Shown: positions 16,032 to 25,130 of the stretch, piece after piece
Numbering within the stretch: the stretch's first letter is position 1
Layout: every line of letters starts with the position of its first letter
NCBI RefSeq assembly: GCF_900110815.1
Contig: NZ_FOIT01000007.1
Span: 1 to 64,000 of the forward strand
DNA from: Aliicoccus persicus
Lineage (GTDB): Bacteria > Bacillota > Bacilli > Staphylococcales > Salinicoccaceae
Direction of reading: 5' to 3'
DNA: 64,000 nucleotides
Made by a program: the position numbers and the translations under genes
Notes under the pieces: generated by a model
Database searches by the model: none
The model's input: only the letters and a program-made list of their open reading frames with translations
Told to the model about the DNA's origin: nothing

Positions 16032-16143
16032 GTTTGTAAACCTTATGTAAAATTTAATAAGAATTGGATAATTTTAGGATATAATCGATTGTATTTCATA
16101 TAATGGTATTGAAATTCACTATCAAATGGAGCGCAACATTCAA

Positions 16144-16983
16144 ATGAATAACATCGGCATCAAAATTAAAGAACGACGTAAACTTATGGCACTGTCACAA
16201 ACACAACTCGCAGCGCGTGCGCACGTTTCACAAACGATGATCAGTCGACTGGAAAATCAGGATAATACCATCCCGCTCGAACACTTTATCTCCATCATCA
16301 ATGTGCTGAGCATTGATGTGACAGAAGTTGTGCCAAATGCGACGACTGAAAAAGTGTTAATTGCAATGCATATGCTGGATTCGGCACGTGCGACTCGAGA
16401 TTTAAAAAGCATACGTCACATCCTGAATAGTCATCCAATCAGCTTTTGGAACAAAAGTCCGGAACTTCAAATTTATAAGACGTGGCATGAAGCCATTATC
16501 GATTACCATAATGGTGATGTTGCGGATGCAATTTCAAAGATAAAACGCCTGATTAACCAGTATATGGATATCCCTGGCTGTTACGAAATCATGGCACAAG
16601 TGTTGAATAATTATGGCAACATATTAACCGAGCCGGAACAGAGAGTGCGCGTGTATACACATGCTAAGAAAATGTTCCTAAAAAGTGCGCAGCAAAACTA
16701 CAAAACGTACATCAATATACTGGTGAACCTTGCCAATCTGTACTGTGAGATGAGCAACTATAAGCAGTCGCTGCGTCATGTGAACGAAGGCTACAAAGTA
16801 CTGCATTCACAACACTCAACATTTCACTTGACGAAGCTGATTATCATCGAATGTAACGCACATCATTTCCAGAAAAATTACAGCAAGTGTATGGAAATCC
16901 TAATGGGTGCCCAAACTATATTTATGCTCTCAGAACAATTGGAACTATGGCAACGATACAAAGAATTATTCACTGGCGAATAA
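16144..16983 (+). CDS. XRE-family regulator with TPR-like C-terminal domain (RRNPP-like)
   Basis: The 279-residue protein has an N-terminal helix-turn-helix (residues 5-60: IKERRKLMALSQTQLA, SQTMISRLEN) and about 200 residues of paired helices with TPR character (YKTWHEAIIDYHNGDVADAI, YINILVNLANLYCEMSNY). This is the build of RRNPP regulators such as PlcR, Rgg and ComR, which bind a small imported peptide. Directly downstream is a 41-residue secreted-peptide gene, the typical partner. ATG 16144 follows GGAG; ATG 16126 is an alternative. That it senses the adjacent peptide is inference. Confidence 0.8.
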   Translation: MNNIGIKIKERRKLMALSQTQLAARAHVSQTMISRLENQDNTIPLEHFISIINVLSIDVTEVVPNATTEKVLIAMHMLDSARATRDLKSIRHILNSHPISFWNKSPELQIYKTWHEAIIDYHNGDVADAISKIKRLINQYMDIPGCYEIMAQVLNNYGNILTEPEQRVRVYTHAKKMFLKSAQQNYKTYINILVNLANLYCEMSNYKQSLRHVNEGYKVLHSQHSTFHLTKLIIIECNAHHFQKNYSKCMEILMGAQTIFMLSEQLELWQRYKELFTGE

Positions 16984-17031
16984 TGATGTTGATTAGACTT
17001 CCTTAATTTTACATGTCTTTATAAACTGTAT

Positions 17032-17058
17032 TTGCACAACATAGCTGTGTAATAGAAT
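17032..17058 (+). promoter_or_regulatory. Possible promoter/operator dyad before the secreted-peptide gene
   Basis: TTGCACA (17032-17038) and TGTGTAA (17046-17052) form an imperfect inverted repeat with a 7 bp centre. It overlaps a candidate -35 (TTGCAC), with TAGAAT as a -10 after a short 15 bp spacer. It lies 20 bp before the Shine-Dalgarno of the peptide gene, a plausible site for the upstream regulator. Confidence 0.35.
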
Positions 17059-17077
17059 GCAAACGGAGGTTAATTTA

Positions 17078-17203
17078 ATGAAACATTTAAACAGTAAACG
17101 TCTCATGATTACGAGTTTTATCGTTTTTACTACTTTCGTCGGAGTTGCTAGCTCACCTGAAAATGAACCAACTGAATGTTACTGTATCGATTATGTCTGG
17201 TAA
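17078..17203 (+). CDS. Small secreted peptide, candidate pheromone precursor
   Basis: A 41-codon frame has a very strong ribosome site (CGGAGGT, 8 bp spacing). The product has a basic start (MKHLNSKR), a hydrophobic stretch LMITSFIVFTTFVGVA and a polar tail PENEPTECYCIDYVW, the layout of PapR-type precursors exported by Sec. The tail ends in a Cys-x-Cys and aromatic residues that could be the mature signal. It lies 94 bp after an RRNPP-like regulator gene and overlaps the YfbU-family gene by 11 bp. The frame and its signals are seen; the signalling role is inferred. Confidence 0.65.
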   Translation: MKHLNSKRLMITSFIVFTTFVGVASSPENEPTECYCIDYVW

Positions 17204-17753
17204 AGATCTCATGTTGCAACACCCTTTTAACCGCTTACTATTATTACACTCTCTACAAATGAAACACATTTTAAATCAGACGCTAAAAGAGGATATTAAA
17301 TTCTATCAAGATGTATTAATCAATGGGATTGAATCTGAATATAATAGTATTTACGATGAAATCTCAACAGAAGATGCGACGATTTCTGTCGCAGTCACAG
17401 ATGAAGTGTGCGAAATCATTCGTATGTTTGAAGCGATTCACCATGCGCTTGAAAACAATTGTCATTCCATTCAACGCCTTGGATTTATCGATGACTATAT
17501 TTATAGTTTCAATGGATTCAATGGGAAGAATCCAGAAGAACGCGCGCACTTTATCTACTTGAGGTTTTATATGGAGTACCACCCTTGCACATTGCCGATA
17601 AAAGACACGAACTTCCTTTCGCTAAAACAATATCGAATGATGCTTGATAGGTATAAGCCGTACAAGACAAGTAAAGAATTGACAATTGACCAGCTAGAGC
17701 ACATTTGCTTTACATATTCCGATATCAATTTCCCAGGAATTGCGGTCCGATGA
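17193..17753 (+). CDS. YfbU-family protein
   Basis: The 186-residue product resembles E. coli YfbU. Shared features are FNRLLLLHSLQMKHIL near the start (cf. RLILSNQYKMM), VCEIIRMFEAIHHAL near residue 76 (cf. IIDIMEMYHAL), LGFIDDYIYSFNGFNGKN, and YRMMLDRYKPY toward the end (cf. YQRMLNVWHA). YfbU function is unclear, though it has been linked to cell death when overproduced. The ATG at 17193 overlaps the stop of the peptide gene and has no ribosome site of its own, so translation is probably coupled; a frame opening at 17145 offers other starts. Confidence 0.7.
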   Translation: MSGKDLMLQHPFNRLLLLHSLQMKHILNQTLKEDIKFYQDVLINGIESEYNSIYDEISTEDATISVAVTDEVCEIIRMFEAIHHALENNCHSIQRLGFIDDYIYSFNGFNGKNPEERAHFIYLRFYMEYHPCTLPIKDTNFLSLKQYRMMLDRYKPYKTSKELTIDQLEHICFTYSDINFPGIAVR

Positions 17754-17887
17754 AGGAATGAAGCATTTTTTACAGATTTAAACCCGCATGTTGGACTGTC
17801 GTTGATGATTGTCTGATGGGCGGGTTGTCTTTGTTGGATCGAGAGGGATATTGATGATGAAATTTGCGCCAGCTTGGTTTTTCTTGG

Positions 17888-18208
17888 GCTGACGCACACT
17901 TTTGATCTCGAACTGTGCGGCAGCTCGGGTTTTTTGGAGTTGCCGCACACTTTTGATCTCGAACTGTGCGGCAGCTCGGGTTTTCTTGTGCTGACGCACA
18001 CTTTTGTTCTTAAACTGTGCGACAGCTCGGGTTTTCTTGTGCTGACGCACACTTTTGATCTCGAACTGTGCGGCAGCTCGGGTTTTCTTGAGCTGACGCA
18101 CACTTTTGATCTCGAACTGTGCGACAGCTCGGGTTTTTTGGAGCTGTCGCACACTTTTGATTTCGAACTGTGCGGCAGCTCGGGTTTTCTTATGCTGACG
18201 CACAATTT
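17888..18208. repeat. 51-bp tandem hairpin array, six full units plus part
   Basis: Units start at 17888, 17939, 17990, 18041, 18092, 18143 and 18194. Each holds GCTGACGCACA near one end and TGTGCGGCAGC near the other. The end of one unit pairs with the start of the next across a loop with TCGGGTTTT; in two junctions the variable bases change together (TGTGCGACAGC with GCTGTCGCACA, GGCA with TGCC). Because 51 is a multiple of 3, open frames appear on both strands; these are not genes. It fills 17754-18302 together with flanking non-repeat sequence. Confidence 0.95.
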
Positions 18209-18302
18209 ATGATTTATGTGTTACTCAATCCCTTGATTTGTTATTGGGAGTAACACTTCACGTCAACAACTCAAAATGTTCGAAAGCACCAATCACCAAC
18301 CC

Positions 18303-18656
18303 CTACTCCGCTTCATCTCTCTCATTCATCTGACTCTCTCGCCTCTTCAAATCCTCAGGGTCAACGACGACTAAGTACTGGCCATCTTCAACATCTTTCA
18401 AGTAAGTCTCGATATCCTCATCACTGAATCGATGATCTCTTAAAAAGCTCTCACCCTGTGCTTCCTTAGAAAAGAATGCTTTTAATTGATTTTCTACCAA
18501 ATGATAGTGCACCTTTACACCTGTATATTTCAACGCATCAAAGTCTGTGTCTTCGGTTATTAAATGTATATCTTCCTCAAAGTAACCTTCTTCTTTCAAT
18601 CGTTCAAAATATTGAAGGACTTCTTCCTGAGTATTAAAAAATTCAAAATAATTCAC
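18303..18656 (-). CDS. YflT-like general stress protein
   Basis: The 117-residue protein begins MNYFEFFNTQEEVLQYFERLKEEGY and continues with DIHLITEDTDFDALKYTGVKV. This matches the small heat-induced stress domain of Bacillus YflT and general stress protein 17M, which have a ferredoxin-like fold. Such genes are usually SigB-controlled; I did not identify a SigB promoter. The C-terminus is charged and probably disordered (RRESQMNERDEAE). Start follows AGGAGG at good spacing. The biochemical function of the family is unknown. Confidence 0.75.
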   Translation of the reverse strand: MNYFEFFNTQEEVLQYFERLKEEGYFEEDIHLITEDTDFDALKYTGVKVHYHLVENQLKAFFSKEAQGESFLRDHRFSDEDIETYLKDVEDGQYLVVVDPEDLKRRESQMNERDEAE

Positions 18657-22051: not shown

Positions 22052-22318
22052 AAATAAGCGATATCTCAATCGACTTACCTTGATTTAGATGGATTTAGAG
22101 AGATGTTATTTGTTAAGACCAATATTTATTAATATAGTTCCCTGCCATTATCCCTGCCACTGTAAAGTTTCAACCAAACATAAGGAAATAATTAGACAAG
22201 CTATTTAACGAAGACTCATCAAACGAGAGTGTAAAATATTTTGTGTAAATAGAAAAAAGGAAGTCCCTTCTGTAGAATAGAGTTACCACACTAAATTCAC
22301 AGAAAAGAGGACTTCCCT

Positions 22319-22768
22319 ATGAACAATCTTACTACAGATATCTTACAGACTCTAGCTACAAAAGGTGATTTGAACGAATGTAACAAAGTTCTTTATGCAA
22401 TTAATAGAGCCATTGATGTTCTAACTCCTACTAAGTTAAGACTTACTTATATTTTTTATTACTATTTGAGTGATAATATAGAGGATTTGAATACATATTT
22501 CAATTTAAACTTAAGTATTAATACGAGATGGAAAAATAAAGACTTAAGAGACTCAATGGCCCATTATGGATTAGGAAAAATATTAAGAAATGATACAGAC
22601 CTTGAGGATGTATATGGAGGAATAACTAATAAACTTTTAGGTATTTCTTGGGACGAACTTTTTATAGAAATTGATAATGAGATTATGTTATTCGCGAGTG
22701 AATTAAATACAGTTATAAACGATAAAAATATTAAACACAAATATATTGCTAGAAACCGAATTGAATAA
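22319..22768 (+). pseudogene. Chimeric ORF: transposase start fused to a HEPN-like protein C-terminal part
   Basis: The first 20 codons (MNNLTTDILQTLATKGDLNE) belong to the truncated IS256-family transposase; from 22380 the sequence is unrelated. The remaining ~129 residues are AT-rich in codon use and contain KDLRDSMAHYGLG, an R-x4-H with an acidic second residue, which is the pattern of HEPN ribonuclease-type domains. The original N-terminus is missing, so this is a fragment. It sits just before a nucleotidyltransferase gene, a pairing that recalls HEPN–MNT modules, but the family assignment is inference. Confidence 0.6.
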
Positions 22769-22982
22769 AAAGACTTGTCAAAATCGGAAGGTTTTATAGA
22801 AGAAACTTTTGTAGTGAATAAGAACCTTATTTAGTTGTTCTGTGGAGAACCTTATCATAAGTGATAATGGTAAAATCATTTAAATATGATTTCAAACTAG
22901 AGTGATACTTGATAACTAACGGTAGTGCATTGTTTAAGAGATAATACTCAATTTAAATATGTTACTAGAAAGGAGAAGCTAG

Positions 22983-23747
22983 ATGGATGATAAAATAAAA
23001 GTGTCCTGCTATTTAAGCTTGTTAGAAAATAAATTAAAGAGCTTACTAAAGGATAAATTAGTAGGTCTATATGTCCATGGTTCGTTCGCTCAAGGTTCGT
23101 TTAAATGGGAAAGATCTGACATAGATATACTAGCTGTAGTGGATGGTAATTTGAGTACAACAATTAAACAAGATTTATTAAAAATTTTTCGTGAATTAAA
23201 ACCACACGGTCCAAAAAAAGAAATTGAGATATCTTTTTTAGATACAAACAAATTAAAGAGTGACAAGCATCCATATCATTTTGAGTTTCACTATTCACCG
23301 TATTGGTATATGAATATGTGTGAAAATCATTGGCAAATTAATACTAATAAAATAAAAGAAGATCCTGACTTAGCCGGCCATATAATGAATCTACGTTCAA
23401 AGGGAATAGTTCTATTAGGACCAGCCATTGAAGATGTTTTTCCGAAAATTACTGAGAAAGATTTCATAGACAGTTTAAACTACGATGAATCAGACGCACC
23501 AGTAAATATCGTAGATACAATTATGAATCTATGTAGAAGCCAATATTATTATACTAATAGTAAATTGGTCTCAAAACTTGAAGGTTTAAAGTGGATGATG
23601 AACGAAAAACCATATATGAATGAGTTTTTAGAGCAAATTCATTTGTTGTATGAAAATGATAAAGTAGAGATTCCTGAAAGCTTAGTTCCAAGAGCAATAG
23701 AATTTAAAGAATATATATTGATCGAGAGAAATAAAACTAATAAATAA
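22983..23747 (+). CDS. AadA-like aminoglycoside nucleotidyltransferase family protein (DUF4111)
   Basis: The 254-residue protein has the nucleotidyltransferase signature GSFAQGSFKWERSDIDIL (residues 30-47; GS-x-DxD metal site), DPDLAGHIMNLRSKGIVLLGP (about 124-144) like the DPDLA...SLFGP of ANT(9)/AadA, and a C-terminal helical part IMNLCRSQYYYTNSKLVSK like that of AadA. Such enzymes adenylylate streptomycin or spectinomycin. It is clearly different from the ANT(9) at 29283. AAGGAG precedes the ATG. Being the cargo of a composite transposon fits resistance; substrate unproven. I do not recognise a named allele. Confidence 0.75.
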   Translation: MDDKIKVSCYLSLLENKLKSLLKDKLVGLYVHGSFAQGSFKWERSDIDILAVVDGNLSTTIKQDLLKIFRELKPHGPKKEIEISFLDTNKLKSDKHPYHFEFHYSPYWYMNMCENHWQINTNKIKEDPDLAGHIMNLRSKGIVLLGPAIEDVFPKITEKDFIDSLNYDESDAPVNIVDTIMNLCRSQYYYTNSKLVSKLEGLKWMMNEKPYMNEFLEQIHLLYENDKVEIPESLVPRAIEFKEYILIERNKTNK

Positions 23748-23793
23748 TATTTGTGAAATAGTCATAAATACATATAGGCTTGTGATGTATCTA

Positions 23794-25130
23794 GAGAGTG
23801 TAAAATATTTTGTGTAAATAGAAAAAAGGAAGTCCCTTCTGTAGAATAGAGTTACCACACTAAATTCACAGAAAAGAGGACTTCCCTATGAACAATCTTA
23901 CTACAGATATCTTACAGACTCTAGCTACAAAAGGTGATTTGAACGAATTATTCCGTTCGCACTTGGAATTAGCCGTAAATACGCTCCTGAGAACAGAGCT
24001 GACTGCCTTTTTGGATTACGAAAAGTATGATCGGATTGGTTTCCATTCAGGGAACTCACGCAATGGGTCCCATGACCGTACGGTCAAGACAGAATACGGC
24101 GTAACTTCATCTACAGATTCCGCGCGACCGCAACGGTGAATTTAAACAACAGACTCTTCCTGCATATAAGCGAACCAATGGCACGTTAGAAGAAACCGTC
24201 ATTCATCTTTTTCAAAAAGGTATTACCATGTCTGAAATTGCTGATTTGATTGAGAAAATGTACGGTCATCACTATACACCACAAACGATGTCCAATATGA
24301 CTAAAGTCTTTACTGAAGAAGTATCAGCGTTCAAAAAGCGTAAACTAAACAGTCATTATGCAGTCATTTATCTGGACGCTACCTATATTCCTTTGAAGCG
24401 GAAAACCGTTGAGAAAGAAGCCATACACATTGCGGTGGGAATTCGACCAGATGGTGCCAAAGAAGTCCTAGGATACGCTATTGCCCCTAATGAATCGACC
24501 GTCACATGGAAAGAGATATTGGAAGATTTATCCGACCGTGGTGTCAATGATGTTCTTCTTTTCGTGACCGACGGTCTCAAGGGTATTAAAGATACCATTC
24601 ATCACGTTTTTCCTCAAGCAGCTTACCAACACTGTTGTGTCCATGTTTCTCGCAACATTTCTAGTAAAGTACGCGTCGCTGATCGCAAGGAAATATGCGA
24701 AGACTTTAAGACGATTTATCAAGCAGATTCACGAGAGACGGCCCTTGAAGCTCGCCTTGCTTTCTCAGAAAAATGGCGCAGTAGCTACTCTAAACTGGCC
24801 AAGTCTATTCTAGAAAATGATAACTTACTTACATTTTACGATTTCCCTTTATCAATCCGTAGGAGCTTGTATTCCACTAATTTGATTGAATCCTTTAATA
24901 AACAAATTAAAAAGTATAGTCGACGTAAAGAGCAATTTCGGAATGAAGAATCTATGGATCGCTTTTTGGTTTCCCGTTTTGATACGTACAATCAGAAGTT
25001 TTTGACACGGATTCACCGCGGCTTCCAACAAGCTGAAGCAGAGCTAGAAAAAATGTTTGAAAGATTAACAAATTAATAAATCGATTTTATAGAAGGAGCA
25101 CTTCATTTACACATAATTATTGACACTCCC
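23794..25130 (+). mobile_element. IS256-family insertion sequence (1337 bp), transposase frameshifted
   Basis: Terminal inverted repeats match: GAGAGTGT...GTGTAAAT at the left and, read inward on the other strand, GGGAGTGT...GTGTAAAT at the right. Length and the 8 bp duplication are typical of the family. It forms the right arm of the composite transposon. Confidence 0.9.
23888..25076 (+). pseudogene. IS256-family (mutator type) transposase, broken by a one-base insertion
   Basis: The N-terminal part reads LFRSHLELAVNTLLRTELTA and NGSHDRTVKTEYG; the frame then breaks at about 24102, where an extra T turns GGCGAACTTCAT into GGCGTAACTTCAT. Downstream the frame resumes (QIPRDRNGEFKQ) and holds the mutator DDE domain: YLDATYIPLKRK, LLFVTDGLKGIKD, HCCVHVSRN, and STNLIESFNKQIKKYSRRK. 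Together about 396 residues, normal for IS256-like transposases. A start at 24228 would give only the catalytic part. Probably inactive unless rare frameshifting restores it. Confidence 0.88.

Follow-up and report, generated by a model that had tools for sequence, protein, structure and literature searches.

The question raised by this locus is whether three genes in a row, encoding a putative regulator, a very short peptide and a YfbU-family protein, form a peptide-signalling cassette in Aliicoccus persicus. The locus lies in a stretch of 64,000 nucleotides (the window) from a 2.06 Mb genome, the sole representative of its genus among the genomes compared. The original prediction described an RRNPP-like regulator, a secreted peptide and a coupled YfbU gene, all on the plus strand; sequence and coordinates are as it described them. 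No RNA families were found in the locus. The features, in order, are:

16144-16983, + strand: XRE-TPR transcriptional regulator, PlcR-like receptor, 279 aa; HTH at about residues 1-62, TPR-like helices from residue 66 (HTH_3, AF2, Foldseek, PlcR profile)
16636-16980, + strand: residues 165-279 of the regulator, its C-terminal TPR half; by alignment, the counterpart of the segment that Salinicoccus species exchange along with promoter and peptide
17020-17025, + strand: probable -10 box TATAAA of the peptide-yfbU promoter; its position agrees with the -10 boxes of relatives
17032-17052, no strand: imperfect dyad TTGCACAAC-ata-GCTGTGTAA, candidate operator of uncertain role (sequence; dyad statistics)
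17065-17069, + strand: ribosome-binding site GGAGG of the peptide gene (sequence)
17078-17203, + strand: putative peptide pheromone precursor, 41 aa, with a hydrophobic N-terminal leader and the end ECYCIDYVW (same-position ORFs in relatives; pN/pS)
17193-17753, + strand: YfbU-family protein, 186 aa, start overlapping the peptide stop (PF03887 profile; fold model)
18303-18656, - strand: YflT-like stress protein gene, a conserved neighbour (PF11181 E 4e-4, below the cut-off; YflT-like genes flank the cassette in relatives)

The ATG at 16144 is taken as the regulator start because homologues align from there and not from an additional in-frame ATG at 16126. The ribosome site claimed for the tiny gene is present, as is the 11-bp overlap of the YfbU ATG at 17193 with the peptide stop, which ends at 17203. 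An in-frame ATG at 17211 is an alternative YfbU start, with which the overlap would vanish.

The N terminus of the regulator is a Cro/C1-type HTH (HTH_3, E 1.4e-10, 41.5 bits against a cut-off of 23 in a profile search), and TPR profile matches are weak. The AF2 model, built from a 26-sequence alignment, has a mean pLDDT of 90.6. Its best Foldseek matches are all RRNPP proteins, led by PlcR with PapR and DNA (3u3w, E 2.7e-7; also 2qfc) and followed by Rgg2, ComR, Rgg3 and PrgX. TM-scores are moderate overall (0.4-0.6) and identity is 12-19%, so the relation to the RRNPP structures is one of fold class and profile, not that of a near copy; the regulator family profile matches PlcR over nearly its full length (E 1.7e-12). 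In the model, the C terminus is a TPR superhelix like those of solved RRNPP structures. The RRNPP build proposed for the regulator is thereby upheld: its HTH and TPR fold is nearest to PlcR, Rgg, ComR and PrgX. When the window regulator alone served as query, named genomes gave no match, the query being too diverged. A defence-system reading was set aside, PADLOC matches being limited to HTH-type models.

A conserved trio in related genomes, the first check suggested with the original prediction, was found. Among the 100 genomes searched, which included 33 of the family, the regulator is present in 28 of those 33 (Salinicoccus, Lacicoccus and four further genera), and in 26 of the 28 a clear peptide ORF lies between regulator and YfbU, ending at or near the YfbU start. 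By these sequence comparisons the trio is far beyond chance. All seven Salinicoccus genomes with the regulator (28-30% identical to that of the window) have the order regulator, short ORF, YfbU, which also occurs in the genus groups g5, g3 and g6. The exceptions both belong to g6: the peptide is fused in frame to YfbU in L011, and no peptide ORF was seen in L023. The fusion junction in L011 (2324-3103) reads SCDCIGSYLS-MENILW, and may reflect either a natural fusion or a signal gene in decay. One genome, G002, has its regulator split over two frames. Apparent internal stops had suggested decay of the g6 regulators; this was rejected, the alignments having overrun shorter proteins. One record in the Lacicoccus group (g2) bears the name Salinicoccus halitifaciens. 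YfbU without regulator and peptide is retained in five Salinicoccus genomes. Two other families of the order have a solitary YfbU gene within a ychF-ssb neighbourhood. Elsewhere in the class YfbU is seldom seen (10 of 399 genomes sampled, 8 of the 10 from the same order). The cassette is best read as chromosomal and old in this bacterial family.

The window peptide matched no family among the profiles searched. The peptides vary between genomes, yet often have a PapR-like end, for example DCxCP[DE][FY]I[FW]. Those of Salinicoccus end in NCLCLPYIF, YRCLGCIF, NCWCLDFIF, DCWCLEHIF, DCLCPEYIF and, in two genomes, NCWCLDHIF. The ends in g5 are DCLCPDFIW and DCECPDFIW, and those in g3 are HCLCPEFIL (two genomes) and DCICPDFIIF. 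In g6 a single, nearly constant leader precedes the varied ends DCLLVVF, DCHISVF, CDCPDFEF, DCHIQVF, DCFIMVF, DCFTLVF and DCLLFIF. PapR7 is ADLPFEF, whose two Phe residues occupy hydrophobic pockets of PlcR (PMC6568020); the family ends CPDFEF, CPDFIW, CPEYIF and LPDREF are like it. A basic start and a hydrophobic stretch are found in the precursors of the window, of most Salinicoccus and of g3, g5 and g6. The PapR-like character first read from the window precursor alone thus gains from the aromatic ends of its relatives, which resemble PapR7. Six Lacicoccus-group genomes (L020, L022, L024, L026, L027 and L031) have an ORF without a leader, ending in SECVF, LQDLEF, LPDREF or GIY/GVY, and the precursor of L004 also lacks a hydrophobic leader.

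Pooled over seven close pairs, the leaderless Lacicoccus-group ORFs included, pN/pS of the peptide frame is 0.31 (38 nonsynonymous changes in 628 sites against 30 synonymous in 155; Fisher p 1.3e-6). In two g6 pairs replacement changes outnumber silent ones, but each rests on only five or six events. Judged by this ratio, the peptide frame is under purifying selection, including in Lacicoccus. The frame, whose conservation the original prediction had made a point to be checked, has therefore held both by position in 26 of 28 genomes and by selection.

The third gene was correctly assigned to the YfbU family, by profile (PF03887, 50.3 bits against a cut-off of 25) and by fold. Its score of 29.3 bits against the NCBI YfbU equivalog model is below the cut-off of 90, making it a distant member and not an equivalog of E. 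coli YfbU. Only E. coli YfbU was matched by the structure model (1wpb and 4lr3, E 2e-3 to 8e-3, probability 1.00), 1wpb with E 2e-3 and TM 0.62/0.68. The two proteins share a fold, whereas their identity is 18-19%. To our knowledge, no regulator-peptide pair has been reported for the E. coli protein. E. coli lacking yfbU showed less mazEF-mediated death, but only after DNA damage (PMC2646832). In a Staphylococcus-family genome (G127, L066 3287-3838) a YfbU gene lies beside dUTPase-like and phage-like genes, and PHROG family 6084 matches YfbU, indicating that YfbU also travels in phages.

Comparison of Salinicoccus species suggests how regulator and peptide evolve together. In the YfbU tree L005 groups with L007, and L003 groups with L006, whereas in the regulator tree L005 and L006 group with L008/L009, and L003 and L007 fall outside. 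Identity profiles of the species pairs in 60-base steps locate the disagreement. For L005 and L007, identity is 87-100% upstream, 83-100% as far as regulator codon ~162, 40-67% from there to the regulator end and 33-46% across most of the spacer and the peptide; it returns to 88-93% in YfbU and mostly 87-98% downstream. For L003 and L006 the left limit is earlier: roughly the first 60 codons are 82-92% identical, the stretch from there to the end of the peptide 45-72%, and most of YfbU 73-88%. Overall, flanks and YfbU are about 80-95% identical and the block about 33-72%. In both pairs the low-identity block starts within the regulator and runs to roughly the peptide stop; the regulator's C-terminal TPR half, its promoter neighbor and the peptide belong to both blocks. 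A need for groove and ligand to match would predict this set. Fast divergence in place could also produce a low-identity block, but its limits are sharp. Moreover, L007 is closest to L005 by its flanks, and yet its C-half is 63% identical to that of L003, as close as or closer than the N-half (60%) and YfbU (54%). Exchange is therefore favored over divergence in place. The pattern looks like a pherotype exchange in which receptor groove, promoter and ligand moved together, and a regulator tail and signal that appear to be swapped as one have the look of a cell-to-cell communication system.

Most genomes have a -10 box between regulator and peptide, which in g6 and in g3/g5 is an invariant TATAAT. 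A dyad spanning the presumed transcription start often follows it, and these dyads differ between species. The original prediction placed a dyad in the peptide promoter. It is present; its role as an operator is weaker than was implied, since on its own the window dyad is not beyond chance (p 0.14). Single-locus tests are mostly non-significant, and the dyads after the -10 box at 15 loci combined give p 3e-6, uncorrected for relatedness. In addition, the dyad changes with the exchanged block while the HTH does not, and so it may not be the operator. The dyad was accordingly not accepted as a clear operator and remains a candidate. Exact copies of the Salinicoccus promoter box number one per genome in three of four genomes, and sites with two mismatches are somewhat above control in three Salinicoccus genomes and not in the fourth.

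The neighborhood may point to a stress setting. A divergent YflT-like gene adjoins the cassette, back to back, in Salinicoccus, Lacicoccus and g6, and the region upstream of this gene contains GTTT-N14/15-GGGTAT, conserved in three genera (L003-L008, L010-L023, L020-L031), which resembles a sigma-B promoter. Together, these neighbors and the promoter-like element suggest that the cassette may operate under stress. Directly downstream of the window YfbU (17865-18213) is a 51-bp tandem repeat of 6.8 copies, each unit with a TGTGCG...CGCACA inverted repeat. Farther along, at 22170-24139, two Mutator-transposase starts (22319 and 23888) flank an AadA-like nucleotidyltransferase gene (22983-23747), which is also bracketed by two copies of a small minus-strand ORF start (22170-22289 and 23682-23858); this segment looks like an IS-bracketed resistance-like gene.

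Fold, conserved peptide frame, true YfbU and co-exchange of regulator, promoter and peptide all support the signalling cassette originally proposed, and the locus is probably a quorum-sensing cassette of the PlcR type (RRNPP), with translational coupling of the peptide to YfbU. The precursor would be exported through its hydrophobic leader and trimmed, and its last 7-9 residues would re-enter the cell through an oligopeptide permease; the window genome has 16 SBP_bac_5 matches to oligopeptide-binding proteins. The peptide would then bind the TPR groove, as the fold and the co-exchange of groove and peptide suggest, and the regulator would alter its hold on the promoter before the peptide gene, activating or repressing it. 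In this way the peptide would control its own synthesis and that of YfbU, which would be translated from the same message at the overlapping or abutting stop and start and serve as the dedicated local output. More tentatively, with slightly less than even confidence, the cassette may be a family-wide pheromone system with YfbU as its single conserved output, a density-controlled stress or cell-fate effector, and with an exchangeable block of groove, promoter and peptide that creates incompatible signalling groups.

Some observations count against quorum sensing: the leaderless precursors of Lacicoccus and L004, the dyad that moves with the block while the HTH stays, the fused or missing peptide in two g6 genomes, and the five Salinicoccus genomes with YfbU and no pair. 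The leaderless ORFs, which occupy the same place and in Lacicoccus are under purifying selection, would fit an intracellular loop, in which an unsecreted small protein binds the regulator in the same cell and the cassette reports its own expression or stress instead of density. Such a loop is improbable, since most precursors have a basic start and hydrophobic stretch as in an export leader, nearly constant in g6, and since leaderless RRNPP peptides can be secreted, as described for the LCP of RopB (PMC10518010).

It is also conceivable, although rather unlikely, that YfbU handles the signal instead of being its output, by binding, maturing or removing the peptide in a stoichiometry fixed by the overlapping genes. 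The overlap or abutment kept through the family and the in-frame fusion in L011 would suit such a role, but YfbU persists without regulator and peptide in the five Salinicoccus genomes, is solitary in other families and is not co-exchanged with the peptide. Far less probable still is that the short ORF encodes a toxin, bacteriocin or modified peptide with YfbU as immunity protein, antitoxin or partner. Its small size, hydrophobic start, Cys-x-Cys end and XRE regulator would be in keeping with this, but the neighboring genes examined include no modifying enzyme or dedicated transporter, PADLOC gave nothing beyond HTH models, the leader is absent from some precursors, and the conserved last residues are exchanged with the TPR groove, not with YfbU.

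The PlcR-type quorum-sensing cassette favored here is most like PlcR-PapR of the Bacillus cereus group, an RRNPP system that is the best match by profile and fold, with an HTH and TPR regulator of about 280 aa, an adjacent gene for a short secreted-type precursor, and an aromatic C-terminal end. It differs in its low identity (~18-19%), the Cys-x-Cys in many peptide ends, the coupling of the peptide gene to yfbU, the leaderless Lacicoccus precursors, and a regulon that is possibly only local. ComR-ComS/XIP and Rgg-SHP of streptococci share the fold class and a species-to-species specificity that changes jointly with the receptor, but their peptide sequences differ and they are known to control competence or other genes rather than YfbU.

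A literature search found no paper linking RRNPP with Salinicoccus and no mention of YfbU in the RRNPP papers it listed. By titles and abstracts, work on YfbU and quorum sensing includes no such regulator-peptide pair, and the main text of the RRNPP_Detector paper (PMC10075063) mentions neither YfbU nor Salinicoccus. The RRNPP kind is already known; what is new is the lineage, the coupling to YfbU and the leaderless Lacicoccus precursors. Staphylococcus makes up <0.05% of RRNPPA-encoding Bacilli genomes, and RRNPP systems are reported to be very rare there (PMC9765709). The cassette adds a lineage of staphylococcus relatives to these systems. YfbU has a solved structure and no known function, and its tie to a peptide signal offers a direct handle on it. 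Finally, the cassette offers a small, sharply bounded natural example of a receptor and its signal changing jointly between close species, and is suited to testing how signal specificity evolves.
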